Below are positions 7,201 to 62,800 of a stretch of DNA of 64,000 nucleotides, in pieces. Source of the DNA: Lentinula raphanica. Taxonomy: Eukaryota > Basidiomycota > Agaricomycetes > Agaricales > Omphalotaceae. Position numbers and translations under genes: made by a program. The notes beneath the pieces were generated by a model. The model was not told the origin of the DNA. It ran no database searches and worked only from the letters and a program-made list of their open reading frames with translations. The stretch lies in assembly GCA_027919835.1 (NCBI GenBank), contig JANVFP010000036.1:62001-126000 (forward strand), in the 5' to 3' direction. Every line of letters begins with the position of its first letter. Position 1 is the stretch's first letter.

Positions 7201-8390
7201 AAGGTACTATTAATATGGCACAGACAATGTCGAATAAAGTTTCGGAATACGTGCAGTCAACATGATTTCGGGAGAGTAGTAGGGAGAAGGGGAGATGGCA
7301 GGTTTCGCATTGCACAACCAGGTTTGAAGAAGGACCGCGACATTGAAGAAAGAGGCGGTGGCAGTGGAAGCGAAAGTGGACGAGGACATAGATCTAATCA
7401 CGTACCATCCTAACACGCGAGTCCGACCGTCTTTTTCTAACCATTGGTATTTTCAAGTTTTACTTAACACACCTGTAATGAGACACAACACGAGCCTGTA
7501 GAAATTGTGTTAGTCCTCCATATTCGATTACCCCGATTCTACGTGAGCGCACAAGAGCGAAGACAAAGTGCATAGCATTTCTGAAGTATTAAGTGATGGA
7601 ATCCTTACATTCGAAGGCTCAATCAGAGTTGACGAATGGCACGTACTAGATGATCCCTTTCGAAAGTCCTCTACAACTCTCAACGTTCTGTGACGTCACC
7701 CCGTCTTATGTACCCCGTAAACCTCATAGAAAGGCTTAAGCTGTCCCGGGTCAAAAGCCACGACAATAATACGAAGCCCGAGTGGCTTGGAAGAGAAAGA
7801 GAAGGTAGAAATGGAAGGGTTCGAAGGCAATCGCATTGAAGACTTGAAGTCGGTTGATCGGGAACTTGAAAGTAGCGAGAGTTAGAGGGATGTAGAATTA
7901 TAGGAACGCGAGTTTGAATACTGTTTTGTTCCATATGCGAGCCATGCGACGACGACGACGACGACGAATGACGAATGAAGATGTCTCCACCGAAACAAAT
8001 AAAAGTCAAAGTGCTGGCGAGTTCGCGAACATTTACCGTGGATCTCAAAATTGAGTCAAGAATATGATCAATCCAAGCGAACTCGGACTAATCTTGTAGT
8101 TCATCTCGGATGCAACAGATGGTTCGAGATACTCAAATCCTCAAGATCAAACGCAAACTCGGCTTAAGTTAAAACATTTGAACAACCTGTGTTCATTACT
8201 CTAATGTGGTCGGAGAGTGTACATTGATACAACTAAGTCAAGTAAGAATGACGTTCGGATAACGGTCCATCCAGAAACCTAACAGAGAAAGATTCATCAG
8301 AGCTCAAGCAGAACACAGGCCAATTGAGAGAAGGGTTTTTACCAAGTTGTAACTCCCCGTCCAGTTCCCCTGTCCAAAGCTGAACACGTA
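4228..8390. other. Gene-poor region between SSP2 and the micro-exon gene
   Basis: About 4.2 kb in which I found no gene with consistent splice sites or a recognisable domain. Overlapping minus-strand frames at 4406-5239 look like chance. A CGA-type trinucleotide repeat lies at about 7947-7968. A short frame at 7210-7391 on the minus strand begins with a hydrophobic stretch but has no other support. Other spliced genes made of very short exons could be hidden here. Confidence 0.35.
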
Positions 8391-10200
8391 CTACTAGGGA
8401 TATTCCTTGAAGTCGTTCATGGCACTGACTGAAAATTAAAAGATGCAGGTCACTTACATTCCTCCCCTCGCGATTGTTGGGGAAAGTTGCCTAGTTAGGA
8501 TATAAAGATCAGTTTATGCTTAACAAATGATGCGGGTAACTTACACCACCCCTGCTCCCTCCCGCTCCAGGCTGAAAAGAGATACAATTTCAACCAGCCT
8601 TCCCAAAGTTGTGCTAACCACATGTAGAACTACATACCTGATAGCGGGACTCACTGACCTGGATGGGATGCAAAGGTCAACACATTTAGGTTTAAGAATT
8701 GGTAGCGATCACTTACCAACACTCCGTTAACGTAAGTTCGTGATGTCTGTGTCAATGGAGAAATCAATGATATACTCTTGGAGTGGACGGATGCATGGAA
8801 AATAATACTTACACCGGTTCCTTGGAAGTTGTTTTGTGGCTATGAGTGTGTTGAGAAAGTCAGTCGAGTTATTTCAAGAGGAGCATGATTAGGAAAGGAG
8901 TTGATAATTCAAGGTACTCACACCACTGCCAAAGTTGACGTTGCTGGGCTGGATTGAAATGGGGATACTGAGGTCAATCTACACATCGAAGTTCAGTCAG
9001 AGACAAAGCGTGGCGTACCCGACTATTGGCGTTGTGTGAGCTGGATCCCACGTCCTAGAAGCAACAAATTCAATTACACATATTTCTTAGGGATAGCTCT
9101 TGTCCAATATGGACAAAACAAATCATGCAGACACTACTCACTTCTGGCACACGATTAAATACGTTGTCTTGGTTCTAAGTTGAACAAAGTTTATAAGCTG
9201 ATTCACATCACACTGGAGAACATGGAGAACAGTACTTACGCCTGTTCCTTGGAAGTTGTTTTGTGACTATGGGTGTGTTGGAAGGTCAGTCGAGTTATTT
9301 TAAGAGGAGCATGATTAGGAAAGGAGTTGATAATTCCAGGTACTCACACCAATGCCAGTGTTGACGTTGCGCATCTGGATTGAAATGGGAATACTGAGGT
9401 CAATCTACACATCGAAGTCTGGTCAAAGACAGAGTATGCTCACATAGTAGTTCCCAGGATTATGATTGGAGTACTGTTGTGAGGAACGAACCGAAGACTT
9501 TGTTTTAAATCAACATGAGCAGCTACCTTAGGATAAAAGAAAATGATTCCAGGTACTCACACTGTGACTAGTACCAGTATTGGTGTTCCACTAGATGAAA
9601 TGTGATATTCAACCTGTGTGCTTGCCAAGATTCCGGTAACGTACGCTCTGGGATGGACCATTTCGTTGCCCTGAGGTGCCAGCCTGGATGGGGTGCGAAG
9701 GTTAACACACCTCAGTTCAAGAATGCTGAAGCCTGATAGCGGTCACTTACAGGCTCGAAGTGGGAGGTGACAGTGGTTCTCCCGGTGCTCTGAATCGATG
9801 AAGAAATCAATTCGTGATATACTCTTGTCCGATATGGACAAAAAAGGTGTTTGCAAACACTACGCACAACTGTATTGAATGTATTCCGTTGATCCTAAGT
9901 AAACGAGGCTCATGAGCTGAGTCACATCACACTGGAAAACATGGGAAAATGACCACAAAGAGAATAGTACTTACACCGACACCGTTGACGGTGGTTTGTT
10001 TCTATAAGGTGTTGAAAAAGTCAGGCAGGTTAGGAAAGGAGTTGACAGTTCCAGTTACTCACACCCCCGCCAGTGTTGGAGTTGGACTGAATTCAAATGG
10101 GGATATCGAGGTCAGTTTACACATCGAAGTTCGGTCAGAAACAGAATGTGCTCACATAACGATGGCCCAAAGGAGTGTACCCATTGTCGGGAGGGACCTA
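8391..10200 (-). repeat. Intron-inclusive tandem repeats inside the micro-exon gene
   Basis: Three successive blocks (about 9541-10200, 9070-9540 and 8391-9060) repeat exon order and intron sequence. The intron between exons 10 and 11 and that between exons 14 and 15 share a long run around aggaaaggagttgataatt; the intron between exons 3 and 4 shares part of it. The repeats therefore arose by DNA duplication of intron-plus-exon cassettes. Confidence 0.7.
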
Positions 10201-10376
10201 GAAGCAACAAGTTCAATCAGACATCTTGCTATAATTTAGTTTAACAAGAGATACTTCATCTACTCCCAAAGCGCGTTCGAATGAAGGGCAATAGGGCAGG
10301 GAGTACTCACAGGAACAGCCGACACAACAAAAACAAGAGACGCAGAAAGAGCTAGACGTATGATGTCGAAACGCAT
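8391..10376 (-). CDS. Secreted protein encoded by a micro-exon gene (20 exons)
   Basis: Exon 1 (10376-10311, 66 nt) encodes a 22-residue signal peptide beginning MRFDIIRLAL. It is followed by 18 micro-exons: 10197-10156, 10086-10063, 10001-9975, 9894-9868, 9789-9751, 9683-9645, 9590-9561, 9473-9444, 9374-9348, 9266-9240, 9174-9142, 9054-9019, 8948-8922, 8839-8813, 8746-8717, 8658-8638, 8571-8545 and 8490-8458. Every one is a multiple of three (21-42 nt), lies in phase 0 and is flanked by GT-AG signals; introns are 54-113 bp. The frame stays open through all 204 codons. The last coding exon is a bare TAG at 8393-8391 (an alternative acceptor adds three residues before a TAG). The mature part has no cysteine, is rich in Asn, Gly, Ser and Thr, and carries repeats such as QNNFQGTG (exons 11 and 15) and NVNTG/NVNFG (exons 10 and 14). 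Family unrecognised. The architecture resembles schistosome micro-exon genes; it lies inside a cluster of secreted-protein genes. Confidence 0.82.
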
Positions 10377-10408
10377 CTTCAACGCAATGCAAATTGACTA
10401 TCAAAGGG

Positions 10409-10415
10409 TTTTATA
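10409..10415 (-). promoter_or_regulatory. TATA box of the micro-exon gene
   Basis: TATAAAA on the minus strand, about 33 bp before the start codon of the signal-peptide exon, implying a very short 5' leader. Confidence 0.5.
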
Positions 10416-10429
10416 TCAGTTCCTCATTC

Positions 10430-13400
10430 AAACGAACAAAACGGTCAACGTACAATAGATTGGGGTTTGTAGTTCGAGATATAGAGCACTAAAGGGCAAC
10501 GAGGAAAAAAAATTCGACGATGAGCACGAACGTTCAGACGAGTGTACGACGATTGACGACTTACGATAAATGAACAGCAAAGTCTTCTTTTGCAACGCAG
10601 GAGCAAGCGATACGTTGATGATGGTGATATGAACTTGAAAGTTGAGAACTTGACGTTGAACTTTGGAAACTTCTTTGGCCAGCAAAGAAGTCTTTTTTTC
10701 GAGGGGATGGGGAAGAAAAGTCGTTTTTCCGAGCGTTTATGTAGCTCAAGGAAAGCCAGATGGACGTCCGGCTGTTTCCTTGTGAGACCCCATAGGACCC
10801 GATAGGACCCCCAGTTTCGGTCCTTTCCTTGCGTGAACGGTTGGACTTTTTTCGTCTGATCTTGATGGCACGGAGCTGGACAACTCATCAGTCTTACGCC
10901 CTCCGACCTAGTCTTACAAGGTCTTACACCGCCATGGCCCATCAAACCACCATCAACCGCCATCGGATAGGGATAATGGCCATTCTTCCTGGTAGCCGAT
11001 GACCCCGTTGGTCGTGAGCATATGCATCAGAGTGCGACAAGAATCAGAAATGTATTGCAACAAATTGCAACACGAGAAGTAAGAGGCAGTAAGCGACGAT
11101 GCACATTGCAAAAAGAATGCAAACCCCTGCAAACCCCTCCTCCGACCCTCCTTCTTCTGAATTGCAAGCGAAGGCTGAGCAGATAAGAGGCTAGAGCAGA
11201 TGGTATCAGAGGGTATCAGATGGTACATGTACCATCGATACGAGTGGGCGATAGGTTCAATAACTTCAATTGTGTTCATCGCCATTGGCCAAGGAAAACT
11301 TCCAAACTCCCTCATCCTTCAATTAAATTATCCGATCGCAAGCGAAAACTTGAGCAACTTGCCAGAAAGGTATCGCTGGCTGTCTGTTGGTAGCCGATGC
11401 TCATGTTTACAATCCTGGTGGAGAGTGGAAAACAGAGGGAGTGGGTGACTGTGAACCGTTGGTGATGGAAGTCATCGCACAGACGTACGACGAACATGGA
11501 GGTCTCAGGTCATGATTCTGGTAGGCCATGTTCGTTTCGAGCGAGGTGGTAGGGAAACGAGGCCTTAAGAGAAATTGAAAGTCCGTCAGGGAACCGCCGA
11601 TGGAGAGTCACAGCATCAAGCAAAAAAGGCGGTGCCAAGATAGAACAGACTGCCTTGCGCGCGAGCTTGGGGAGTCTTGAGGAGTCTTGGGGCTGCTTGG
11701 GGTCTGCTTGGGTCCGATGTGAAATGAACTACATAGAGAAAGCCCATGTTGACGCGCGCACAATCACTATCAGATTCAATCATCGTACCTGAGGCCTGAG
11801 GCCTGAGGAGTCAAATCCCTCAAAATCCCGTTGTAGCGGAGCAGCAACACTAGCAGCAACCAGCAGCAACCGTGATGATCGCACTGCAAAGCTAGGAGAT
11901 TTATGCATCGTGTCAGTATGAGATACCGTTGGGGAAAGATTGAGGCAGACGCACTGCAGGGCTAGAGTGTTTGAATTTCTGAGTCGCGCCATCGTTTAGT
12001 ATGACTGAGATCTCTCTTCAAGAAGCTTCTGGGTTCACTTCACGCGAGCAATGTTATGTTTCACTGATACGAGTTCAACTTCCTGCCAAAGTGACACATG
12101 AAGGGAGGCATAATTTTCACCGCGAGGGAAACTAGTCGCTTGTGGAGATCAACGCCTTTGAGAGTACTCTGATTAGAGGGGGAGAGAAGGGGAGGGCGAT
12201 GGATACAAACCAAAGCATTCAGCGCGATGTCCAGATTCTAAAATAGTTTGGTCTATAACATAGGAGGACGCTTTGGGGGATCTTCAGAGAATGGTAGCAT
12301 GCACGAGATGTCCGAACGGAGTTGCGAGCAGAACTCGAAACACAAAGAGGCAAGGCCAAATGGCAAAGTCCGTAAGACACGAAGAGGAAGCTCGCCGTAA
12401 CCCGTTGCATTAATGTTGGACGTTCCGAGTGGTCTCGAATCTATCCGTCCCCCCTCCAGTGATTTTCACCTATCTTGCAGTAGCGAGATTTGACCAGGGT
12501 CGGGGAGAGCGTCAAATGACCAGGTAAGTGGGCAGGGAAGTATAAACATTGAACGTTTGAACAATTGGCATGTAGAGGCACATTGAAGACCAGTACGTAG
12601 TAGCTGGAAAGATGTAAGATCAGGGCGGAGACGCGATACGATTACGCGTACTGTCTAATCCCTTTCCAAAAGTCTGCCCTTCCCCATTCACATCGTCCAC
12701 TGTACCCTTTAGACCCCATGAAAGGATGCTTTGTCCTTCTCATGCAAGTCTCGCTGGAGATTGACTGCCATCGACGCGATTTCTCTATTGCCTGATACTT
12801 GTGCTTGTGCTTGTGCTTGAGCGCTCGTCGACCAGACAATAGACACGAAGAGGGCAGTTCAGGTTTGCTGTTGAGCTCAAACTGCACTGTGCAGGACGAT
12901 CGTCAACGCGATTGCTGGTGTTTGCTGATGCAGATGGTAAGACGGAGCTACTGATAGTATTAGTCTAGTTTCAAGTTGGGGGTCTGAACCGTAGGTCAGG
13001 TCTTGCCTGATTAGGCCATCATGTGTACATCACGTTCTCTGTTCACACGCTGAATGAATCAAACACAACGCGTCGTTTACCTGCCTTAACCACTCTTTGA
13101 GCGAGACATATGCTCTAGATGTGCTGCAGTATATACTCTGGCTTCTTAAGAGGGCCAAGCGCACAATTCGTCTTCTTTTTTTGAGCTGCAGGTTGATCAG
13201 TGAGCTGAATAAACTAAATTTTGCGTTTCTTTTTTGCATTTGAGTCGCGGACAGTTGTAGATCATCATTGCGTACTGGAGTTGTCCGTTAGAAAGGTGCG
13301 ATAGCTTATTGGAAGACTCTACAACGTATATGACGGTGTTCAAGAAAGAAAAAACTTCCTGAATTGAGAAGTTCGTGTATTGCAACTGTACATGTGATTG

Positions 13401-21321: not shown

Positions 21322-21504
21322 TCAAGAGATTACACAGAAAGCGGACCCATCGGGCGCACCGATTTCTTCTGAGTCCTGAGGTAGTGAGAGCTCAATAGCC
21401 TTTTTACAAGAGGCTGGACTTGTAGAGGAGAAAGTTGATTGGGCGGAGTCGATTGAAGACGAGGGGATGAGAGTTTCAATGCAAGCGTAGTTGAATGAAT
21501 CCAT
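21322..21504 (-). CDS. Mating pheromone precursor 1 (CaaX)
   Basis: A 60-residue precursor starting MDSF and ending FCVIS. The last four residues form a CaaX box, the signal for farnesylation, proteolysis and carboxymethylation of fungal lipopeptide pheromones (established for basidiomycete B-locus pheromones). The mature peptide would be the C-terminal 10-15 residues around GAPDGSAFC. An acidic stretch (about residues 43-48) lies before it and could mark the processing site. It lies about 1.5 kb from the nearest STE3 receptor, with a second precursor in between on the same strand. Both precursors share the MDSF start and FCVIS end. Confidence 0.8.
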   Translation of the reverse strand: MDSFNYACIETLIPSSSIDSAQSTFSSTSPASCKKAIELSLPQDSEEIGAPDGSAFCVIS

Positions 21505-22312
21505 TTCGAAGGGTGAAGCGTGTAACTCAGTGGTGATCGACGAGGGGCAAAGGTGACCGAGCTTCGAGCTGTCGACGACTTTATATACTCTCTATTTTGC
21601 GGACAATAAGGCGCTAGAACACGTACAGCCATTGTTCGTGGCCATTGTCGTCCAACTATTGTCCCGGGCCGGGACATCCAAAAAAGGCAATTATCCTTCC
21701 TATTTCGGCTTTATTGTTAGTTCGAACAACTGAGGGTGGGCGCGTGAGGTTCTGACTGTGAGGCCTGAGCCTGAGACGTTTACACGTTAAAGTAGCCTTA
21801 AGATCGCAACCGCGAAGTTGGATCTGTCGACTATGCCGCAAGCCTTTCGTTGTGATCAACAAATGTAAAATTCGATAGAGTTTCTGGGATACAAGCTAAC
21901 ACATGCTGCTAATGATACAAAAAACTAAAGTTGACTATCGAATCAGAAACCAGATACCGAGTACAGAAGAGAGGAGAGATAAGTAAAAGAAAGCCAAATA
22001 GATATTCATAATGCCAGAATCATAGAGGGAAAGACGCCGAAATTTGAAACTTTCAGAAGGAATGTGAGCTAGTTGGTAGGGTAGCAGGCTGTGAGTAATG
22101 CGGAGAGCCGACTATCGAAGCCGGACAATTTTCCTGAAGATGTCCAAGTGAGCAATCGAGAGCGAGGAGGGGATTACGACGTGACTAACCATGACAATTG
22201 GTTAGAAAAACATTTTCTCTGACCATTCACAGAGAGGCGGTGGAGTCTGGTGAAACGAGACCTTAGCTCACTGCACTGGACATAATTTCACAATGAGGAC
22301 AGTCACCATACC
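21505..22312. other. Intergenic between the two pheromone genes
   Basis: No further CaaX-ending frame was found here on either strand. Nothing else recognised. Confidence 0.4.
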
Positions 22313-22477
22313 TTATGATATAACGCAAAATCCAATGATGTCTCCAGACCCTGCGGCTTCGGCGTCCACGGGTATAGAGTATGGAGCGTCGTCGAAGGTC
22401 AGAGTTTCTTCGACCGAACCACTAGTCGAGACTGTGGTGGTGGCAAGTTGAGTTTCGAGATCGGTGAATGAGTCCAT
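22313..22477 (-). CDS. Mating pheromone precursor 2 (CaaX)
   Basis: A single-exon frame of 54 residues beginning MDSFTDLETQ and ending GFCVIS. CVIS is a CaaX prenylation box. It has the same strand, start motif and end motif as precursor 1 about 0.8 kb away, and lies about 0.4 kb from the end of STE3 receptor 1. TATATAA immediately before the start may act as promoter. The central part is acidic and poorly conserved, as is usual for the discarded leader of these precursors. The predicted mature lipopeptide is the last dozen or so residues. Which receptor it activates cannot be told; in compatible mating the receptor is normally of another allele. Confidence 0.83.
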   Translation of the reverse strand: MDSFTDLETQLATTTVSTSGSVEETLTFDDAPYSIPVDAEAAGSGDIIGFCVIS

Positions 22478-22840
22478 TATATAGGATAGAACTGATGGTT
22501 GAGTTTGAGTTGAGGACGAGTTTAAGAGGTTGCGGCGGGGGAGTGAAGCAAATATGTGTCACTTTGTGTAGAGGGCTCGCAGTAATATGGTGGGGAAGTG
22601 AATGATTCTGGGTTCGAATTTATAGGGAAAAAGTCGCATTGTGTTTGGAGGACAATGGTCGTCGGTCATTGTCCCACTTACATAATTCTACATGGCCCAT
22701 TGTCCTGTGTGAAGGCAGATTCCAGAATTCCGTATGTGGCATGCTTGCCGCGCGCAGGTCAAGTATCGCACGAACGTCAAAAAGCCAAGAATGGTGGGCA
22801 ATTAGCGGTAGGTTCACTTGTTCGCTATCTACTACACAGA

Positions 22841-24352
22841 TCATATCGCAGTTACAACAAATACATTGGTAGAGTCATCAGCATCCTGATGCCGGTGGGG
22901 AAAGTCGATTTGACTGGGAGAGTTGGTATATAAAGTAGAAGAACCAGAGGAAGAAGGCCGAATTGGAGATCCAAGTAGTGCTGGTTTGGGGTATAGAATA
23001 TCATATATCGGAGGAGGCTCAGAAAGATCGGACGAAGACACATAATGCTTCGGTGTTGTTGGAGGAGAATCAGTTTTGACTTTGAGCGGAAGACTATCCG
23101 ATAGTCTTTGCCTAAGCAACGCGAAATCAGACATATAGGAAAGCGATATGCTGAGCGACACTTACTTTTTATCGGAAAGAAACGTGATCGAGGGCATTCG
23201 TAGACCAAGTATACGTAGTAGACCATGGAACCACATAGTGTAGTTTCTTCGAGCTTCCTCGGCAAACCCGAAGAAAACAAAGAAAATGAGTGCGCAGACA
23301 ACAGATGCCCAGCGATTGATTTGAAGACCCAATGCCATCCGGGGATCTGCTTCGTAGATTACCGAAGGAAACTGTTCCACTCGGGAGAAATCGATGTGAG
23401 TGTTGGCAAGACTGATCCAAGGACTGATTGGAGTAGACACGGCCGTGAGCCAGATGGTGACGACAGATAAAGGTACAGTGCACATGAGCTCCGTCATAGC
23501 GAGAGCCATCAAGCGAAAGTAGCGTCCTATAGTGAGAGTTTTGTTGCAGGAGATGAATTGAGAGAATTCGAGTCGACGTTGGGCGAAAGCTCGTAAGGAG
23601 AGAACTGTTGATTTGATCGTGAGCAAGTTCCTTCCAGGCTAGACGAAGGACGCGTCCTGACTCACCACAATACACGGCAGAGATAAGACCAAAGATGAGC
23701 GACCACGAATAAGTGATGAAGTAGAGTGGTAGCGTGTTGTAGAGAGCGGGCATGCAGCCGATATCCTCGAAAATATTGAAACGATGCCCTTGTACGATAT
23801 ATTCTATGAAGAGATGAGCGGAACGTCTGTGAAAGGGCAGGAACGCAACGAACGCAAAGCAATGTAGATCATGGGCCCCAGTACGCAAATCAAGCTGTCT
23901 ATGATGATCGCACGACGTTTCTACGAGTAGAGTTCAGGAGACGCGAGGACCAAGTACGTGGATTTTGCGTTACCTCTGCGCGAGTGATTGACGCATTCCG
24001 TATGGCGGCAATTCCATACAGGCGTCGTACTATGCAGAAAGAAGAAGCAGGCAGACCAGCGACAGCACCCATAGTGATACGTATGGCTGAGAAAAGAAAT
24101 ATTAACCAAAGAGAGTTCACTGAAGACGATGAAAGACGTACAAATATCACACCAGACCGGCGCAGAATTGATAACATTCCCTTTCCATATTATCGAGTTC
24201 ACGAACTGGTTGAGACACGCAAGAGATGCCCAGAGCATAAAGTAGCACGTTCCCGAGTTCCATGCTTGGAAATGCCAAGGGAGAGGGATCAAAGGAAGGA
24301 AGAAACCAAAGAAAGCGAAGATTGGGAAGAGAGGATAGTCGAGATTGGCCAT
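22841..24352 (-). CDS. STE3-type pheromone receptor 1
   Basis: Seven-helix G-protein-coupled receptor of the fungal STE3 class, expected at the plasma membrane sensing lipopeptide pheromone. Six exons: 24352-24142, 24086-23974, 23920-23854, 23803-23666, 23604-23166 and 23111-22841; 412 residues. STE3 hallmarks are IPLPWHFQAWNSGTC (helix 1/loop), VWCDIS (helix 3 region), a loop with QGHRFNIFEDIGC, and FFGFAEEARRNY at the start of the cytoplasmic tail. The tail (about residue 320 on) is Ser/Pro-rich. Exons 2-4 have the same lengths (113, 67 and 138 nt) as in receptor 2. It is divergent from receptor 2 and next to two pheromone precursors, i.e. a B mating-type locus. Confidence 0.93.
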
Positions 24353-24937
24353 CGAGATTTCTGGGTGGAGGTGAGACCACAATGACCAAGTGGCAAGTGG
24401 CAAGGGACAAATGTGGGATGGCCAAAGTCCATTGTCGCTAGTATAAGTATGTGGTACATCCCTTTGTGTCGAACGGAACAATGGTTATGACAATGAGCGG
24501 AGTTTGAACGTTGATTCTCACGCCTCTCAATGGCGGCAATCTTTCGGCCTCAGAAGAATTTTTTGTTCTGTTCTTCGAGTTCGTGCAAGGGCCTCCTAGT
24601 TATGTAGAACTCTTAGCGAAGATAGTGAAGAGAGTATGACTGTGGACACAGATCGGAGCAATGCGGTACACGAAATTTCTTGACCGAGTAACAAACTGTA
24701 ACAAAATAGCGAGAAGAGGGCGTCTGAAATCTAAATGGGGAAAGTGGGGGCGCCTAAGTGGTTCAAAAGTCCCAATTGTCTTCAGCTTTTGTCCTCACCT
24801 GCACACTGAGATAGGAAACAATGGTTGTCTTTTTCGAACTCCGCCTTGAGCCGGAGTATATCTTCCTCGTCTGGCTGACATACTCTTCAATTCACTCTCC
24901 CATATCGATTCAGACGCACTGCGGCACCACTTGACTT
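24353..24937. other. Upstream region of STE3 receptor 1
   Basis: Promoter side of the divergent receptor pair. cattgtc and cacaatgg-type stretches recur here and upstream of receptor 2, but no defined pheromone-response element could be fixed. Confidence 0.3.
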
Positions 24938-25440
24938 CTAACTCACAGTCAACTCGTTATCCATGGACACCTTCACCTCGTTTGAATCCATATGCTCTTC
25001 GAGCTCGCTCCCGCTCTCCTCCTCTGAGGACGCTGTACTCTGCGACGGCCAACTATCAGATTCATCTCCGTCATCCATTATGGTGGACCTAGAACATCCC
25101 TCCGACAGCGGTTCTGATGCCAATCTTGGCAGTTTTTGCACAATTGCTTGAACCCCGCACCCACAAACCTTCTATAGCATTGCCTGTGAGTATCGTCTTG
25201 AAACATCTTCAACTCATTGATACTAACAAGCAGTCCGGTATAGCAATGAGGCAACAAGACGCTTCTGCATTGATTCTCGTCCAATGCGACATCTTCCTCG
25301 GCCCTTCTATTTTTGGCCGTCCCAGCCCTACGACCCCTCTTGGGTTGATCTTCGATCTCATTCCTCCTTCTCATGCTCATTCCGTTGACCGGAACTTTGA
25401 CATGGTCTTCTTCGCTAACTATCCTACACTCCTTGGGCAT
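24938..25440 (-). CDS. Hypothetical protein between the two receptors
   Basis: Two exons (25440-25228 and 25171-24938) across a 56-bp GT-AG intron give a continuous 148-residue frame. The first half is basic (RRRNEIEDQPKRGRRAGTAK) and holds four cysteines around the junction (QCRS, HCY, VCGCG), possibly a small metal-binding knuckle. The second half is strongly acidic and serine-rich. No known family recognised. Splicing removes the stop that otherwise closes each frame, which is the main support. Confidence 0.4.
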
Positions 25441-26183
25441 TATTCGTGGTTTATCGTTTCATTTTTGCCTCTCCACTCTCATTCAGATCCGTTGGACTTA
25501 CTTATATCTATGTATATCTTGTATCCGTAGCTGCTATTTCTGCAATGAGTCTTCAACATGAACCATCATGATGACCTGGTATCACTCTCGCCACGCTCTG
25601 TGGATCGATAAGTAATTGCTTCAACACTGGCTTGCGGCCAATAAATTATAAATCTCAGAGATTGACCTACATGAGCGTAAATTTTCAGCAAATAGACGAG
25701 CCGGTCCCTCTTAATACCCATTTCATGCTCACTATTTGCCTGTCGCATCAATGGAGTCTCCGGGAGCCCTCTGCAGTAGCGCTTTCAAATTTTGTCAATG
25801 AACTCGATTAGTTGGATCCCAGTGCAGTGGTATTGCTCGCAATTAGTGAATTATTCTGGACGTCGACACTCACTATGAGCCTCCTTGAGTCTATGATTCG
25901 GTTTTTGATTAACAATCGCACAGTCGGTCGTAGTCTGAATTCTTCTAAAATGAAATCTGATCATGAGCCGTTTCGAGGACAACTCGTACTAGTAGAAGGG
26001 AACCGCTAAGAGACGCTAAGCGCCTCTTACATCGTGGGAAATGGGCGCTTAAATTATCCAAAGGCCCATTGTCCTCCTCGCCATTGTTCGGACAATGTGT
26101 TCATCTCGAAACGGAAACAAAGCAAAGGAGAAGATGAAAACACGCAATACTCAACTTTACTTCCAACTCCTTTCCTCCCCACC
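25441..26183. other. Upstream region of STE3 receptor 2
   Basis: No gene seen; promoter side of receptor 2. Confidence 0.3.
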
Positions 26184-28228
26184 ATGCCTTCATCCGATCC
26201 GACTTTTCCACTTTTCTCTATCTTCGCTTTCGTTGGGTTTGTGCTCACTGTGATTCCATTACCGTGGCATTTTCAAGCATGGAATTCGGGAACCTGCGCA
26301 TTCATGTTGTGGGTCGGGAGCTTTTGTCTCGTTTTATTCATCAATTCGTTGATATGGGCGGACAATGCGCTAAACACCATACCCGTCTGGTGTGATATCT
26401 GTATGTATCCACTTTTGTGCATCGACACCCACTTGCTAACCATGATTCAGCGTCTCAAATTTTGGCAGGTGCTGGTGTGGGTATTCCAGCATCCACGCTC
26501 TGCATTACCCGTCGACTTTATCGTCTTACGTCTACGCAAACGGTATCCATCACTCGCGATGATGTACGTATTCCGCTTTCCAAGTCTTTCTATGTTTACT
26601 CATATTTTCCAAAGAAAATGCGCGCGATTTATGAAGACATAGCTATAGCAGCTGGTTTGCCCATTTTTGTGCTGATACTACGTGGGTAACCCATAGCCAC
26701 TGAACACTTATGATTCATCTGATTCCATCCCTTGTAGATATCATTGTTCAGCCACATCGTTTCGATATCATCGAGGAATATGGATGCTCTATCGCTACCT
26801 ATAACACCATCCCCTCATATTTCCTCTTCTACATGTGGCCCGTATTGCTCGGATCGGTCTCATTCATCTATTCAAGTGCGTCACTCATGAGCAAACAGAA
26901 CAAACTCACTGAACATTTCCTAGGTCTCACACTTCGAACGTTCTACATGCGTCGTATCCAGTTCAATCAGATTCTTTCTGCGAATACTGCCATCAATCCT
27001 AGCCGGTATTTACGTCTTATGCTTCTTGCTCTCATCGACATCATGTGTACGATACCGCTCGGCATCTATGTCATATACCTCGAATTGCATGGTGTACCTC
27101 TGCAACCCTGGATCTCCTGGGATGACACGCACTTTGATTTCGGGCGCGTGGTGCTGGTCCCAGCTGTTGTATGGCGCTCCAGCTCCTCTAGCATTGCAAC
27201 TGTGCAGATCAACCGCTGGCTACCTGTTGCTTGCGCGTTCGTTTTCTTTGCCTTGTTCGGGTTTGCCGAAGAAGCAATGAAAAACTACCGGCGTTCGTTC
27301 TGGTATGTTGCCAAACTGTTTGGTTTCCATCCTCGTCCAGGATCACAATCGAACACGGTGCACCAAAGCAAGAGTGGCATGTTTTCCGGGTATGTTATCT
27401 TGCTACAATCATGCTTGTGAACCGCCTCTGACGCGTTACACCAGGCTCAAGCGTTTCAAGCTCAATTCCCAGGACTGGAAATCCCATGGCGACCTGGCCT
27501 ACTCGAGATCAACAGAGTCTGCAATATCATCGGCTCGACTAGCCAAATTGCGACAGAGTGTGGCTGAGGCAGAATTTCGTTCGACGATCTGTTTTCCAGA
27601 CGACGATGTTGAACTTGGCCCTTACCGCACATCGTTCATCAATCCCGAGATCTCGCATGCAATACCGTTGTCTCCGTCTTCCTCGACATCCACATACGCA
27701 CCACATACTCCTGGTACACCAACGACACTGCCCCCATCCTATAAAGATTCCACATGCAACGATGCTGCTGCTTCCGCATTCTGTGGAGACAAACTTGACG
27801 AATACATAGACCAGACTCCGAGGGTTGCCTCTTGGGTGACATTGCCGGATATGATCATCGCAGATTCAGCCCGTGAGCATGCCAGTCGGCCTTCGTCGTA
27901 CTCTTCGTATTCTCCTTCTCTCAATCGCCATACGGAGCGGACGGATGATGGTCATGAAGAGGACGAGATTTCTATCACGGATGCGTACATGGACTCTCGT
28001 CCCGCTTCACCTATATCTCCTGGGCGCGCACCTACGCCAATGCCCTTTGCTTCTTCCGAGCTACCTGTGCCTCCGCCTCCTGCTTTGTCTTTCCATCGAC
28101 CCTTCTCACCCCCGAGTGTTTACCCCGTCACTCAATCTCATCTCGCAAGGAACGCGAACGCATCGAACGGGTCAATCAATGGAATCACGGTCACTGTGCA
28201 TACACAGTCCTCCCGGGAATCTCTATGA
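26184..28228 (+). CDS. STE3-type pheromone receptor 2
   Basis: Second STE3 receptor. Exons 26184-26400, 26451-26563, 26615-26681, 26738-26875, 26924-27389 and 27445-28228 give 594 residues. The start at 26184 gives the short extracellular N-terminus usual for the family, and accATGcc is a good context. Motifs: IPLPWHFQAWNSGTC, PVWCDIS, CITRRLY, PHRFDIIEEYGC, QINRWLPVAC and FGFAEEAMKNYRR. The cytoplasmic tail is about 270 residues, far longer than in receptor 1, and Ser/Pro/Thr-rich. Intron positions match receptor 1, so the two are old duplicates. It is predicted to couple to a heterotrimeric G protein and start the mating MAPK cascade (known for the family). Both receptors look intact. Confidence 0.93.
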
Positions 28229-36872: not shown

Positions 36873-39862
36873 CTACTTATCTATGGCAACTCCAATGACA
36901 GCAGCCATGTCATTGAGTACTCCATCCTCATCATCTTCATCGTCTTCATCGTCATCCAACGGCGGTGCATCCTCGTCGGTAGCGTGGTCGTGGACTCCCT
37001 CCGAATGCATCTGAAGTTGAGCTCCTTGTATCTGAGAATAAAGGGGACCTCGCCCTACCGACAACGATCCTGTAAAGCCCTTCACCCTGGCAAGCTTTCT
37101 AAGCCTGAGCATGTGTAGATCGTTGCACCTCGCCCGTTCCCAAGCATAGCGCTGGATCTGTGCAGCAAGAAGGGGGTTCGAAGGCCGCATCTCCTCCTCC
37201 TTTAGTGCAAGGAACGCCGATTCTTCATGGATGTAGGTGACCAGTGAGTGAATTTCTTTGTTGAGTCGAATGATTTCCTCCTCAGCGTGGACAAGCTTGT
37301 GGTATTGATCCATAGCAAGACGGCCCGCAGGCTGAGCCCACAATTCTCCACGAACGTCGCGGCGGGCATCCCGAAGAAGGTCGAAGTCAGAGAGAAAAGA
37401 GTACTCGACAACATCCTCCCATGAGAGAGTAGGTCGGCCAAGTTCAGAAGCCGCATCGTTGAAAACGGTGATAGCTGTGCGGATAGCTTGGGAGCGAGCT
37501 TTGAGGGAGTCGGCGATGTGTTTGCGGAGCTTGTAACCAGTGTGCGACATGTTCATCTTCGAGAGTTCGAAAAGTCGCGCAACTACGAGGCCCTCCAGCT
37601 TATCCAGAGCGCGCCGGTATTTCGCCTTATGAACGAGATCCTGTGCGACTCTCCACTCCTCAGAACCAGGTATCCATCTGGTCTTGATGCCGAGCTTCAC
37701 TTCCAACGCTTGCACTTCGGCCTTCAAGTCATCTCGATTCTCGATAGCATGTCGTCGTCTGGCTTCGATTTGTCGAGTCTGATCGTTCCGACCAAGAGCG
37801 TTGAGGATGGAGTCAGGTGTGTAGGTGATCCACTCCCGATTGGCGTCGTTGAGCTTATTCTGGGCTGCCGTGTACTTTTCGAGCTTCTTGAAGTATTCCA
37901 TCTGCAGCGTTTCCTCCGGCGGTTCCTTTTTGAGGCTCTGAAGATACTCCTGTTCTTGCTTCAGCCAGTGAGGAAAAACCTCCGTCGACGTTATCCCCAG
38001 GTCGTTCATTGTGTGTGCAAGTGCAGAAGCGGACTGTTGGATTTCAATAGCCTGTTTGTACTTGTCGACAAGGAATTTGCTCAGCCGAGCGTAAGTTTCG
38101 AAGTTATCGTGGTGGTAGCTGAATCTGGAAATGGCTTGTCGGCGATGGAATGTGGACATATGACGAGTAGAGGAAGCGAGCTCGTTTGATTCAGAGAAGA
38201 ACGATTCACATTGCTCGAGGTGTTCAAGTCCAAGCCCGGGGATGTACGTAGCAAGGTGAGACGTCTGGCAGAGTCTGGAATGTGCATGCCCATGAAACGC
38301 CCCAACCAGGGATGTGTATCCAAGCGTCTCAGCTTTTGGTTGGAGGGGGCTCTTCTTGATCGTGGCTTTGAACCCGCATCCAATATCGTAGCCTATGCCG
38401 AGGTCTTTTCCAAACACATCGAGAAGACGATTGACGATAGCGAGAGGATATTTTGCCAGCTCCCCACTCCTCACCATGTCTGCAATAAGCAGGACAAACC
38501 CGTGGCGGCATAGGCATAGAAAGATTCCGGTTTCCTCGAAAACACCCCACATCTTTGCTGTCGAAGTCTCGCTCAGGTTTTTCCACCGCTCCTCACATGG
38601 ATTTGCTTCCTCTGCTTCACCGCCCGACTCGACCATCTCTTGAATTGCGGCTTTGGACCACTCATCGACCTCCTCTCTAGTCAGATAATAGTCCCCGCCT
38701 CCGACCCGCATATCCGACCTCTCTTTCGACTGCTCAGCAGAATCCTCGCCAACCGTATCCTTCCGGTAAAGTCGTTTGAGCGAGTTATTGCCGTCCATGG
38801 TTCCGAGTAAAGAAAATCGAAGCTTCGGCTCCCCTTCTGTACGATACATGCAGCAAGGGCAAGTATTCATCAACCGCCAGTTCTCTGAGTCCCGTCCGAG
38901 CGCCTTCATTACGCGTTTGTGGATTCGGAGGTTGACGTCGAGGTATAGATCGAAGGCGATGGAGAACTGTTCGCGGAGGTATGGTTTGAACGGAATTCCT
39001 TGTAAGTCACAGAGGGACTTAACGAAGGCCTGAATGGAGAGACGGGGGCAACGAAGAGATTGTATTCGAAAGAGTTCAAGAGTTCGTGTGGTGACGGCGA
39101 CGGTAGCGAGACCAGGAGAGCAGGGCCAAAGGCCGCAGCGAACGAGGCTATATGACCAGAAAGGGTCTGTTTCTGCGCATTGAACGTCGGTATAAAAAGA
39201 CTCTGAGTGCCTAGTCAGGTAGAGATATTCATGGGGAAGTTTTCGAACACTCACTGAAGATGTCAACTGCAGTGATTGTCTGACTAGTGCATTGTCCGAT
39301 CAGTTCAGAAGGAGTACCATGCGAAAGACCCTCGTGCCCAAACTCCGCATACCAAGCCATATACGCATCGGTCATAGATTCCATCTGAGGAGCGAAACGA
39401 ATGTTTCGACGATGAGTTCGATCTCGCCTCGTTCGAAAGTCCTTCCTTTGCCTAAAATCAAATAGATTTTGATTAGCTATATAGAATAAGACGGGCGAGA
39501 ACATACTTTTTGCCAGCATCCGTCTCAAAATATCCTGCAGCAATGTCCTCAAAATCTCCCATATGGCTGTGTTCCAAGATATCTCGTCCTTCTAATACAT
39601 CTTCCATCCGGTTGTCGTACCCATCGATGTCGACAGGCCCACCCATTTCATCGTCCGAGCCATCTCCACCGTCACCTTGACTGCTAGAATCGATCGGCAG
39701 CATGACCTCTTGTTTCGCCTTCAGTTTGGTGATCTGGGTTTGCGAGTGTGTTTTGAGTTTGGATCTGAGCAGGTCAGCCATGGTCTCTGCTCCTCCAGCA
39801 AATCGCTGACGTTTACTAGATCCGGACTTGCCATACGTTCGGCGTTTGGAAGACGAAGGCAT
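36873..39862 (-). CDS. KDZ transposase, element 1
   Basis: Exons 39862-39507, 39451-39255 and 39202-36873 give 960 residues. The N-terminus is basic then acidic. A cysteine-containing module precedes the catalytic core: LRCPRL at about 235 and NTCPCCMYRTEGE at about 297-309. Core motifs of the KDZ family are DGNNSLKR (321-328), GYDIGCGF (about 456-462), FHGHAHSRLCQ (about 487-497) and GLGLEHLEQCESFFSESNELA (about 507-527); the acidic residues in these are the likely catalytic D/E set (inference from the family). A long coiled-coil region and an Asp/Glu-rich tail (DDDEDDEDDEDG) follow. Introns of 55 and 52 bp are GT-AG. Predicted to act in the nucleus on the element ends. It is intact in frame in both copies; copy 2 lacks three residues in the acidic tail. 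Confidence 0.93.
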
Positions 39863-40233
39863 ACCGGCACTGGTGACCGAGCCCTGCTAGTAGTAGTAGT
39901 ACTTCAACTTGTTTGAGGTTTCAGGCGTAACACGATCACGTGCAGTCACGTAGGCGTGTTATCACATGACGTACGGCTTGAATACATAATAGCATCGGTT
40001 GTTTGTTGATTGATTTAACCTCCTCTTTCATTTTATTCTCATCATCCTCGAGTCGGCCATCAAGCTGGTGAGTACTCAATTGCTTCATGCCTTCGGGTGT
40101 CTACTCGAGAGCGCGTCGCTTGCCACGTTCACCCCTGGATGCGGCAAGCGGCGCGTTTGATGAGAACACGATACCAAAGGAGAAGCGCAACGGTCCTAGA
40201 AGTGGTATGCTAACAGATTTCTTCCTTTAGACT
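39863..40233. promoter_or_regulatory. Divergent promoter region, transposase / TET-JBP
   Basis: A 371-bp interval between divergent start codons. It holds a cluster of ACGT-core sites: tcacgtgca (39936-39944), tcacgta (39946-39952) and tcacatgacgta (39962-39973), of the type bound by bHLH or bZIP factors. A possible 5'-UTR intron of the TET/JBP transcript spans 40068-40230 (gtgagt...tttag). Repeated in element 2 at +20303. Confidence 0.45.
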
Positions 40234-41770
40234 ATGGTCTCAGGCCTTACCAGGACGGTAAGCCTCTTATTATCTACTCAACCCTTTCGCTAATAACGCA
40301 TTAGACGCGTTCAGGACGCTCTTACATCGAGATCATCGCTGAAGATGATCCAAACGATATTGCTGTCCTTCAGCTGGACTTCTCAATCGATATGGACGAC
40401 CTAGCTCGACAATCTATTGAAGATTCAGAAAACCCGGATCTCGAGGAGCCTCAAACTTTCACATCGATTCCGAATACGCTCAAACGAAAGTACGACTCCG
40501 AAGACAGCAATCCTGCCCCACAAAAGACTCCACGCAACGGCAAGAGCTCGGGACAAAAGGCTCAGTCAGCGAACAACAGCCGTCGCGCTAAACGACGTGC
40601 AGAAAAACAGGCGACTCTTGGACACCCTCGTGGAACCGGACGTGCTTTTGAAAGGCACGTCATGGCGGCGGAGCCCATTCAAACTGCCTTAGTGAGCGAG
40701 GAACTTCCTATCGCAGAGGGGGGCTGGGTGGCCACCGATTGCTCCTACGTCGGTGCCAAGGTCAAACGGAAATTGGAGACGCTGAAAGCCCAGGGCTTCG
40801 TCCATATACCGTGGAAAGGAAGGTGTGTAATGTTCCTATAATTCTACTGAATGGCTTGACAGCTCATTTGCAGGGTACCTGTTTCCGTCGTGGATGCCGA
40901 AAAGCGGGTGGTGCTTGCAGCCGTCGGCCAACCAAACGACTCCAGCTACTCCTCCGACGCCGAAGAAATGGCCGACCTCATGCTTCAACTTGGTGCAACC
41001 ACGGACTGGTCAAAAGCTGAACTGCACACGAGACGCGGCAAATTCGCGTCGGCAACCTGCGGCTGGTCCTATGGTAAAGGGCAACCGAGGCCTATGCGCC
41101 TTGGTGGCGAACGTCAAGAATTGATGGAGGAATTCATTACGAACAAATGTGTTCAACGAATCGCCTCCTACCAGAGTGGTGAGCTCGACTCTCAGCATGG
41201 CTATCGCATCTTTCCACTCAACCTTCGATAGCGACTTTTGGCCTTTGGTTTCCTAAGGCTTATGGAGAGTATCGACGCCGCAACAACCAACTCAAAGAGA
41301 AGATCCCGGAGTTCGATGGAAACGTCAAAGGGAGCGTGTTCAATGGCTGCACGGCCAACTTTGGACCCAACACCTGGACGTACATTCATCGCGACACAAG
41401 GAATGCACCCGGTGCATGTGCAATTACTGCGGGGGGGCCATTCGATCCAGTCAAAGGCGGTCAGCTCATCATATGGGACCTTAAACTTATCTTCGACTTT
41501 CCCCCAGCGTCGACTATTCTCTTACCTTCTGCTCTTTTTCGACACTCGAATATCCCCGTTCAGAAAGGTGATAAACGGGTGTCTTTCACTCAATACACAG
41601 CTGGTGGCATTCACCGTTGGTTGGAATACGGGGGGCGTACTGAAGAAAGGTTCTCGATTGAGGACCCCGAGGGTTATCGAAGAATGCTTGAGGAAAGACC
41701 AGGGCGTTGGCAAAAAGCGTTGGATGTCTTTAGTACAATAGATGAACTGAAAGCTGGCATTACAGCTTGA
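40234..41770 (+). CDS. TET/JBP-family dioxygenase, element 1
   Basis: Fe(II)/2-oxoglutarate dioxygenase of the TET/JBP family, which oxidises 5-methylpyrimidines in DNA (family knowledge). Exons 40234-40257, 40305-40822, 40874-41178 and 41232-41770 give 461 residues. The N-terminal part is charged with nuclear-localisation-like basic runs (SRRAKRRAEK). The catalytic fold is in the last 180 residues: NFGPNTWTYIHRD with iron ligands H335 and D337, the strand GGQLIIWDL (about 358-366), the distal ligand H387 in PSALFRHSNIPV, and R398 in KRVSFTQYTAGG for 2-oxoglutarate. All key residues are present. It is divergent from the transposase, so likely co-expressed. It could demethylate or mark the element's DNA; that role is inference. 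Confidence 0.9.
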
Positions 41771-42498
41771 ATGTAGATAACCTCATGATTCAGATCGAGC
41801 AAGTTTCGTTCAAAGTCCGAGTCAGTTATACTACCTCAGAATTTCAAAAAACAAAGAATTGGAGTCAAGCAGTGAGTTAAGCTGGGCCAATGTCGCTCCT
41901 CAGAGGATTCTCTCTAGCTCTCAACAGTGTGTCTTGTGAAGGCAGTCCAATGTCGAAAAAGCCAAAATGTCATGGCTTATCTTAGTAGATCAAGTAAAGA
42001 CTATGAGTCTTAAATTTTTTCTGAGGCTCTCGGATGTATATGTAATCTCTTCAGATAGCGAGATCATTGAATACATCACATATTCTTGTTACAAAATTTT
42101 CTGTTGGTTCTATGTTCATTCCTTGACTTTCGAAACAAGATTGTATTATTAAGTGCAAGGAAAATTCAGTAAAATACCTTTCTGGTGTAGCTACAAGGTC
42201 CCGTACTTTGAGAGCTCGTCCATGAAGTCAATGCATGAATACTCAAGAAATCGGTTGTTAGAACATATAGCCGAAGTAGGAACCATGGGGAAAAGTAGGC
42301 TTGTTGGGCGTTAAACTGCCATTTTAGTATACAAAAATGGGCGCCTAGTCAAATTGCAGCACCTAAGTTCATCGCAACTCACTGTCTCTCACTGTCAGTC
42401 CATTTTTTTGATAGATTTCGGTCAAGAACCGCGACAACATTTTGAATTCAAAGCTTTTACATAGATTTGGAGCTCATACAAGTAACAAAGCAATTATA
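41771..42498. other. Convergent intergenic region in element 1
   Basis: Between the 3' ends of the TET/JBP and RNase H1-N-like genes. A/T-rich; no coding signal. Confidence 0.5.
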
Positions 42499-43646
42499 CT
42501 AAGTGAAAAATCCAGGCCTCTCAGTAGAAACAATGCGACAAGGATCAGCATTTGACTGGGTGTTCCAGTAATCTTGAGCTTCAGCCTCACTGGAAAACGC
42601 AGTCAGAAACCCCCCACCCCATTCAAGGCCATCACGGAGTGCGTCGTAGCTTGAGACAAAATTAGCAACATGCTGAACAGGGTTACAAAGAAAACTTACG
42701 CGCTTCGATAAATTTCAGGATGCACACCCTGAGTCACCACCCAATATCCTCGTCCCATCCCTTGCTGGAGCGCGCTCACTACGCCTGATGTTCTAGCAGC
42801 GTTCCATGAAGCTTGTGCGAGTTCGCGGGTCGGAAAACCTTTGAAGACGAGATTGGGGTCTTGTTCTTTCAACTGCTTGACCCTGGACCTACATATAAGA
42901 GTCGTCAATTGTTGTCTAGCAAACACGACGAGCTGAGCTTACCATCTATCGTAAACGAAAGCCTCCCTGCCCGAGTAGACGACGTAAGCGTTGTACTGTC
43001 CACGACGGTGTCGAGGAGTGGCAGGAGGTACCGGAGGCGGTGAGAACGGAGGTAAGGTGGCCAGGGAGAGAGCAGGGGACGGCAGAGCTTGACTTCCCTC
43101 CGACTGGACTCCTGTGAAATCCGATGGAGCTTCCGACGGTCCTGCTGGCTCGGATGGCCTTGCGGCCTCTGCCGGTTCAGAGTACTGTGGAGGTGGGACT
43201 GAATAAAGCTCATCCGAGCCCTGTCGAAACACATAAACTGGCGGGTTGTTGAACCTACCCTTGCATCAGTTAGAACTTACTCTTAGGCAACGATAGATAG
43301 CTTCTACATACAAGTTTGTGTTGATCTGTTCTTGAATTTTCGACGATCTGGGTAGCTCTTTCTTGGGCGATGCTTGAACAACCGCGTTCGAGAATTCCGC
43401 AGGCCGCTTTGTGGGGGAGGCTCGACCTCGACTCACTCAATAAATCAAGGAAAATCAGTTGACATGAGAGAAGAGAATAGAGTCGTTCTTACATGTGATC
43501 TTAGACATCGTTTGGGCCAACTCGTCTATGAGGTGATCAGTATGAGCCTTCTTACATTATATTTACCTACCGTCTTCATCGTCGCTGGAGTCAGAGATCA
43601 GAATCACTCGACTAGAAGATGAGGTTGAGGCTAAAATGGGTGTCAT
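42499..43646 (-). CDS. Protein with two RNase H1 N-terminal-like modules, element 1
   Basis: Six exons (43646-43571, 43525-43493, 43435-43312, 43254-42943, 42888-42700 and 42649-42499) give 294 residues. Residues about 13-25 (VILISDSSDDEDD) match a SUMO-interaction motif: a hydrophobic core then acidic/serine residues. A Pro/Ser-rich linker follows (about 80-165). Two copies of the RNase H1 N-terminal (viroplasmin-like) fold come next: AYVVYSGREAFVYDRW...LVFKGFPTRELAQASW (about 175-230) and YWVVTQGVHPEIYRSAYDAL...FLTAFSSEAEAQDYW (about 240-290). This fold binds RNA-DNA hybrid or dsRNA in RNase H1; no nuclease domain is attached. It sits inside the transposon, divergent from the fourth gene. 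Role in transposition unknown. Confidence 0.78.
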
Positions 43647-60165: not shown

Positions 60166-60536
60166 ACCGGCACTGGTGACCGAGCCCTGCTAGTAGTAGT
60201 AGTACTTCAACTTGTTTGAGGTTTCAGGCGTAACACGATCACGTGCAGTCACGTAGGCGTGTTATCACATGACGTACGGCTTGAATACATAATAGCATCG
60301 GTTGTTTGTTGATTGATTTAACCTCCTCTTTCATTTTATTCTCATCATCCTCGAGTCGGCCATCAAGCTGGTGAGTACTCAATTGCTTCATGCCTTCGGG
60401 TGTCTACTCGAGAGCGCGTCGCTTGCCACGTTCACCCCTGGATGCGGCAAGCGGCGCGTTTGATGAGAACACGATACCAAAGGAGAAGCGCAACGGTCCT
60501 AGAAGTGGTATGCTAACAGATTTCTTCCTTTAGACT

Positions 60537-62072: not shown

Positions 62073-62800
62073 ATGTAGATAACCTCATGATTCAGATCGA
62101 GCAAGTTTCGTTCAAAGTCCGAGTCAGTTATACTACCTCAGAATTTCAAAAAACAAAGAATTGGAGTCAAGCAGTGAGTTAAGCTGGGCCAATGTCGCTC
62201 CTCAGAGGATTCTCTCTAGCTCTCAACAGTGTGTCTTGTGAAGGCAGTCCAATGTCGAAAAAGCCAAAATGTCATGGCTTATCTTAGTAGATCAAGTAAA
62301 GACTATGAGTCTTAAATTTTTTCTGAGGCTCTCGGATGTATATGTAATCTCTTCAGATAGCGAGATCATTGAATACATCACATATTCTTGTTACAAAATT
62401 TTCTGTTGGTTCTATGTTCATTCCTTGACTTTCGAAACAAGATTGTATTATTAAGTGCAAGGAAAATTCAGTAAAATACCTTTCTGGTGTAGCTACAAGG
62501 TCCCGTACTTTGAGAGCTCGTCCATGAAGTCAATGCATGAATACTCAAGAAATCGGTTGTTAGAACATATAGCCGAAGTAGGAACCATGGGGAAAAGTAG
62601 GCTTGTTGGGCGTTAAACTGCCATTTTAGTATACAAAAATGGGCGCCTAGTCAAATTGCAGCACCTAAGTTCATCGCAACTCACTGTCTCTCACTGTCAG
62701 TCCATTTTTTTGATAGATTTCGGTCAAGAACCGCGACAACATTTTGAATTCAAAGCTTTTACATAGATTTGGAGCTCATACAAGTAACAAAGCAATTATA
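62073..62800. other. Convergent intergenic region in element 2
   Basis: Copy of 41771-42498; no coding signal. Confidence 0.5.

Follow-up and report, generated by a model that had tools for sequence, protein, structure and literature searches.

The window, a 64,000-nt stretch of Lentinula raphanica DNA, harbours a gene on its minus strand that runs from position 10376 down to at least 8458. An earlier reading of this DNA from the sequence alone (the sequence-only reading) had given no strand. The first exon, E1 (66 nt, 10311..10376; MRFDIIRLALSASLVFVVSAVP), contains the start codon and a hydrophobic segment that resembles a signal peptide when judged by eye, and is also the first exon in the deposited model. 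A putative promoter element, TATAAA, was found on the same strand at 10410..10415, 34-39 nt upstream of the ATG.

Eighteen exons follow E1 on the minus strand, each 21-42 nt long. The first nine are E2 (42 nt, 10156..10197), E3 (24 nt, 10063..10086), E4 (27 nt, 9975..10001), E5 (27 nt, 9868..9894), E6 (39 nt, 9751..9789), E7 (39 nt, 9645..9683), E8 (30 nt, 9561..9590), E9 (30 nt, 9444..9473) and E10 (27 nt, 9348..9374). The last nine correspond to E11 (27 nt, 9240..9266, encoding SQNNFQGTG), E12 (33 nt, 9142..9174), E13 (36 nt, 9019..9054), E14 (27 nt, 8922..8948), E15 (27 nt, 8813..8839, encoding PQNNFQGTG), E16 (30 nt, 8717..8746), E17 (21 nt, 8638..8658), E18 (27 nt, 8545..8571) and E19 (33 nt, 8458..8490). 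All eighteen exons after E1 are in phase 0, have GT-AG borders and a length divisible by three, and E1-E19 together form 612 nt without a stop. This is in agreement with the sequence-only reading, whose exon layout for 8458-10376, phases, borders and 204 open codons were all reproduced. The introns measure 54-113 nt, with seventeen out of eighteen below 100 nt, and a CTRAY branch-point word is located 18-35 nt upstream of the acceptor in six of them (I1, I2, I3, I10, I14, and I18).

To obtain this exon model, donors and acceptors were marked and the minus strand was read, which gave E1-E19. A strict chain search (exons of 15-60 nt, introns of 42-130 nt, strict donor, YAG acceptor, stop-free), whose limits were fixed after the gene had been read and were applied identically to the controls, detected fifteen exons in series, E2-E16. 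The same search chained at most one exon on the plus strand, two on the minus strand with the gene masked, three in 300 dinucleotide shuffles of the region, and two in ten shuffles of the whole window. When the donor rule was relaxed and exons as short as 12 nt were admitted, eighteen chained exons were detected at the gene, including E17, E18, and E19. The control for the looser search consisted of the gene-masked window and twenty stretches of the same genome, that is 263,489 bases from 21 sources read on both strands (42 source-strands), or about 0.5% of the genome, a coverage that further genes of this kind could escape. There the longest phase-0 chain had four exons and the longest chain in any consistent phase had six, each reached in 1/42 source-strands. 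The claim that such a run does not arise by chance holds as far as eighteen chained exons are compared with at most four in the control, but the exons are not independent. They fill at most nine slots, several of which are reused two to three times, and the effective run is therefore shorter than eighteen.

The contig to which the window belongs (510,489 bases) carries the deposited L. raphanica gene C8R42DRAFT_713647, described as a hypothetical protein. Twenty exons taken from the window DNA reproduce its protein exactly, and the locus is thus already public. The statement that standard ORF calling misses the gene is correct when ORFs of at least 150 aa are simply listed, but not for the public annotation. 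C8R42DRAFT_713647 and the present model have identical positions for 12/18 introns, 17/18 donors and 13/18 acceptors, and fourteen out of the nineteen present exons occur unchanged in the deposited gene. E2-E4, E6-E8, E11-E13 and E15 were found both by the chain search and in the deposited model. The introns E4-E5 and E5-E6 do not match because C8R42DRAFT_713647 lacks E5. For E9, E10 and E14 the acceptor also differs, as the deposited exons start 24 nt (at 9497), 30 nt and 30 nt earlier, the latter two giving exons 9404-9348 and 8978-8922. Instead of E16, C8R42DRAFT_713647 uses a different acceptor and a 5-nt exon, which shifts the frame of E17-E19.

A second deposited model, F5878DRAFT_647143, apparently belongs to another strain, judging by its other locus prefix and its own contig of 6,267 bases. 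It holds fifteen out of the nineteen present exons, E16 among them, none of which differs at more than one residue; over these shared exons 5 of 168 residues differ and the frame is kept. At the protein level F5878DRAFT_647143 supports the E8-E9 and E15-E16 joins of the present model, and it also translates stretches read here as intron or upstream sequence. E5, found by the chain search, is missing in both deposited models. The two models conflict with each other and with the present one at E5, at E16 and in the 3′ part, which suggests that RNA evidence was not used for the 3′ part of either.

The 3′ end region (8201..8457, minus strand) possesses candidate acceptors at 8406, 8394, 8391, 8380, and 8370. 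An end at 8391, as proposed in the sequence-only reading, was not confirmed, since it needs the acceptor at 8394 and a last exon composed of TAG only. Alternatively, the deposited acceptor at 8406 (AAG) would add GAA TAT CCC TAG in the present frame, that is, three codons and a stop. The acceptors at 8391 or 8370 would open an exon of 48 or 27 nt to 8343, followed by the deposited intron 8342-8279 and a final exon from 8278, and the acceptor at 8380 is a further candidate.

The signal-peptide-like start indicates that the product is probably secreted. Following the E1 segment, the predicted protein is of low complexity and contains 16% Asn, 16% Gly, 12% Ser, and 11% Thr, and no cysteine is present in the 204 residues. 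The Pfam search with a 245-residue spliced protein did not assign any family, and the Rfam search over 8000-10800 gave no match. AlphaFold2, run on the C8R42DRAFT_713647 product as a single sequence, yielded a mean pLDDT of 33, with 249 out of 250 residues below 50, none at 70 or above, and no fold. The product is probably disordered; the low pLDDT fits this, as weak evidence when obtained from a single sequence.

Other features were noted in the same window. ORFs of two STE3 pheromone receptors are located at 23165-23638 and 23924-24484 on the minus strand, and at 26010-26639 and 26704-27417 on the plus strand. They are accompanied by pheromone-like ORFs with CaaX ends, CVIS at 21322-21504 (minus), CVIS at 22313-22477 (minus) and CTIA at 24963-25151 (plus). 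The stretch 21322-27417 is probably a B mating-type locus, 11 kb from the micro-exon gene. A mating-type link of the micro-exon gene was dropped, its sole support being this 11 kb proximity, and a reading as an idiomorph would not be expected with 163 of 168 residues common to the two deposited alleles. The stretches 36876-43276 and 57188-63578, about 20.3 kb apart, show near-identical ORF order and lengths. In the first stretch, which was the one covered by the Pfam search, an ORF encoding a KDZ transposase was found, and the window seems to contain two copies of a large transposable element.

The micro-exon gene itself contains direct repeats, in which blocks of exon and intron occur in two or more copies. 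The sequence-only reading had described the run correctly and was silent on its makeup from duplicated blocks of several exons, introns included. Three slots are occupied three times, namely a (E2, E9, E13), b (E3, E10, E14) and c (E4, E11, E15), and three are occupied twice, namely d (E5, E12), e (E6, E16) and f (E7, E17). The resulting order is a-b-c-d-e-f-E8 / a-b-c-d / a-b-c-e-f / E18-E19. One duplicated block, comprising E10 and parts of its flanking introns (9281..9434, minus strand), is 90% identical to a second copy that spans E14 (8855..9008, minus strand). Over the ungapped columns, introns of like slots are 71-95% identical, and a pair contains at most 26 gap columns. The highest identities were found for I10/I14 (95%), I3/I14 (89%), I3/I10 (87%), I9/I13 (86%), and I4/I11 (86%), followed by I6/I16 (83%), I2/I9 and I2/I13 (81% each), I5/I15 (78%), I5/I12 (72%), and I1/I12 (71%). 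When the exons are compared among like slots, pairs of slots b and c alone stand out, and the homology of slots a, d, e and f is based on the introns. This repeat pattern shows that the micro-exon run comes from duplicated multi-exon blocks. Since a copied phase-0 block stays phase 0, the symmetry of all exons follows, and selection for skipping is not needed to account for it.

In these alignments the exons diverged faster than the introns when the comparisons were pooled. Between blocks I and II, 30/104 exon sites and 40/230 intron sites were changed (p=0.02); between blocks II and III the values were 19/81 and 12/132 (p=0.005), and between blocks I and III 35/126 and 57/292 (p=0.07). These are two-sided Fisher tests on substitutions only, and because the blocks share sequences the three comparisons are not independent. 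With gaps counted as changes all three p values were 0.004 or lower, although the rates for the poorly alignable exons depend on the gap settings. In the pairwise comparison the exon rate was above the intron rate in ten out of twelve pairs, with a one-sided p < 0.05 in four of them (E10/E14, E4/E11, E4/E15, and E9/E13). The rates were nearly equal in E3/E10 (21% in exons and 19% in introns) and E6/E16 (23% and 19%), and the exon rate was the lower one in E2/E9 and E7/E17.

A simulation of four equal-length exon pairs, in which the synonymous and non-synonymous changes looked random, gave no indication that purifying selection acts on the protein. As the codon changes match the random expectation, the exons are either driven to change or free of constraint. 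The stop-free state of three equal-length exon pairs has an expectation of 0.57 and is uninformative by itself. Length differences within slots were divisible by three in 6/6 cases for exons and 4/7 for introns, which is the direction expected of a gene, the exon figure being partly built into the phase-0 model. The GT..AG borders are intact in eight chosen intron pairs whose bodies have diverged at 6-22% of their positions; the chance of this is about 0.004 as a product of single probabilities, a partly circular estimate given that the introns were chosen by GT..AG.

A protein homologue search with E values up to 10 against about 5.8 billion proteins revealed two matches, C8R42DRAFT_713647 and F5878DRAFT_647143, and limited to residues 99-204 it revealed C8R42DRAFT_713647 only. 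No relatives outside L. raphanica were found by this word-seeded search at E up to 10, which depends on common 5-residue words and a similar length; diverged relatives, including those in other Lentinula, could therefore escape it. The DNA search for paralogues in the own genome detected this locus only. The corresponding protein search returned E1 and E2 of the own locus, and is weak in that it recovered 2/19 exons of the gene itself. A genome-wide search for the pattern donor-intron-acceptor-micro-exon-donor gave 555 matches compared with 920 for the reversed control, and thus no genome-wide excess of the pattern. Among the matches listed (C1 to part of C6), clustered places include C2:562-564 kb, within a repeat array designated L024, which was the one analysed further, and C4:1307 kb. 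L024 (C2:561301-564700) consists of tandem 158-bp units with splice-like borders, which occur in each of the two arms (99% complementary) of a 1058-nt inverted repeat. The best phase-0 chain in L024 has six exons, under limits wider than those of the control. L024 may represent either a foldback element or a further gene built from repeated tiny exons, and is of doubtful coding value.

Genes with a comparable layout are described in other organisms. The micro-exon genes (MEGs) of Schistosoma mansoni encode a signal peptide and secreted proteins in numerous very short exons whose lengths are mostly divisible by three (PMC10526429, PMC4350168), and disorder is reported for isoforms of MEG 2.1 (PMC10399815). 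Similar to the MEGs, the coding part of the L. raphanica gene consists largely of very short symmetric exons. The likeness to schistosomes drawn in the sequence-only reading stands for the exon layout and may extend to the signal-peptide-like start, but not to intron length or sequence relation. MEG introns measure 0.1-5 kb, whereas those found here measure 54-113 nt, and 35 MEGs with at least 87 proteins are reported, compared with the one locus known here. No sequence relation to MEG proteins was found at E up to 10, nor any Pfam family, in a word-seeded search that a remote relation could escape. Membership in the schistosome micro-exon genes was rejected on intron length and sequence, and the likeness is structural.

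The bicycle genes of aphids possess about 17 exons on average, with unusually small internal exons that are nearly all of one phase, and they evolve rapidly and are hard to find by sequence (PMC9168663). The eighteen micro-exons of the L. raphanica gene resemble them in number and size. However, the internal exons of bicycle genes are in phase 2 and those of the L. raphanica gene are all in phase 0, and bicycle genes form a family while one locus is known here. Bicycle proteins bear CYC motifs, in contrast to the cysteine-free product of this gene. Membership in the bicycle genes was therefore rejected on exon phase and cysteines.

Within the fungi, inclusion of one microexon is reported to change the product of Xlr2 in Trichoderma virens, in an article whose authors state that functional microexons were previously undescribed in filamentous fungi (PMC11121469), and P450 genes of Phanerochaete chrysosporium are reported to contain microexons (PMC1184071). 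These share very short fungal exons with the present gene. As described in those articles, their microexons lie inside genes for a regulator and enzymes, whereas here the run makes up nearly all the coding sequence of a probably secreted protein. The SP7-like effectors of arbuscular mycorrhizal fungi are secreted repeat proteins for which a conserved intron is reported to serve as one of the identifying features (PMC11333574). By that description they are set apart, having a single conserved intron before the first repeat, whereas in the L. raphanica gene an intron occurs every few codons. Among the open-licence PMC titles and abstract openings listed, none describes a fungal gene built mainly of micro-exons, a scope that leaves most of the subscription literature outside.

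We judge the locus to be a real, structurally extreme and fast-changing gene with a probably secreted product. The most probable explanation, which we consider likely, is a spliceosomal L. raphanica gene that arose by block duplication, is spliced mostly constitutively and encodes a fast-changing, probably secreted disordered protein. The unit of duplication would have been a symmetric phase-0 block, containing as many as seven tiny exons and their short introns, and the run would have grown in this way. Whole blocks or single exons could be added or removed with the frame left intact. Short introns, here of 54-113 nt, suggest intron definition. The spliceosome would then recognise and remove the short introns one by one through intron definition, joining nearly all exons in most transcripts, while the 3′ splice sites may leave some slack. 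Splice sites and frame would be kept while the exon content changes quickly, as may be expected for a surface, matrix or effector-like protein. From these features we infer that the gene is transcribed, that its splicing is constitutive and its product secreted, and that it has a role of this kind.

An alternative is that the gene is a functional analogue of the schistosome MEGs, in which regulated skipping would release many secreted variants from one locus. In favour of it, the sequence-only reading had pointed out that every subset of E2-E19 keeps the frame, which is correct by arithmetic alone, 18/18 exons being symmetric and in phase 0. The same symmetry is, on the other hand, automatic when a phase-0 block is duplicated. 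C8R42DRAFT_713647 omits E5 in frame, and the peptide IDLSIPISIQ precedes E10 and E14 in both deposited models. In C8R42DRAFT_713647 this peptide arises from in-frame acceptors 30 nt upstream (stretches 9375-9404 and 8949-8978). Such alternative acceptors appear in both models, which may be computational only. The introns that end at these upstream acceptors would measure 39-40 nt, below all eighteen introns of the present model. The equivalent site before E3 is GTGTAAAC, without an upstream AG. If introns were retained instead, an in-frame stop would be met in fourteen out of eighteen of them. The faster pooled divergence of the exons also favours regulated skipping, whereas the intron definition suggested by the 54-113 nt introns speaks against it.

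Splicing data from the mushroom Schizophyllum commune bear on regulated skipping in both directions. In a transcript-based analysis, exon skipping is reported to account for 1% of the events in coding regions, with intron retention the commonest type, and a junction-based count in the same article gave 1,527 skipping events in coding regions compared with 7,851 alternative splice sites (PMC5034255). In that fungus, as reported, skipping is rarer than other splice events, yet present. Taken together, regulated skipping as in schistosomes is an unlikely account of the L. raphanica gene. We consider slightly more doubtful the proposal of a fungal micro-exon gene of separate origin from those of animals: duplicated phase-0 blocks would supply a secreted protein, its exons would be driven to diversify between unchanged introns and splice sites, and skipping and in-frame acceptors would add variants.

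The gene could also be a former repeat-protein gene, now decaying or unexpressed, on which selection is gone. The random-looking synonymous and non-synonymous changes, exons that are no better conserved than the introns, the uncertain 3′ end and the conflicting deposited models would fit such a state. Nonetheless, 204 codons without a stop or frameshift, the intact GT..AG in eight intron pairs (chance about 0.004, partly circular) and the kept frame in fifteen exons of F5878DRAFT_647143 speak against it, and we regard decay as more doubtful again. Splice-like sites within a duplicated non-coding stretch are very improbable as an explanation: duplicated blocks could multiply one chance module of several exons, and L024 is a repeat array in the same genome with splice-like borders and doubtful coding value, but it is opposed by a first exon that resembles a signal peptide, by as many as nine distinct slots compared with at most four chained exons in the control, and by two deposited gene models.

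Runs of tiny same-phase exons in genes for secreted proteins are described in schistosomes and aphids. The block-duplicated gene of L. raphanica points to a practical weakness of annotation, as the deposited models agree on most of the tiny exons yet diverge at several of them and in the 3′ part. In a fungus, and with introns of 54-113 nt, such a case would suggest that block duplication can give this layout without long introns. It would also offer a fungal system in which to ask if runs of micro-exons are used for splice variation or arise as a by-product when blocks are duplicated.
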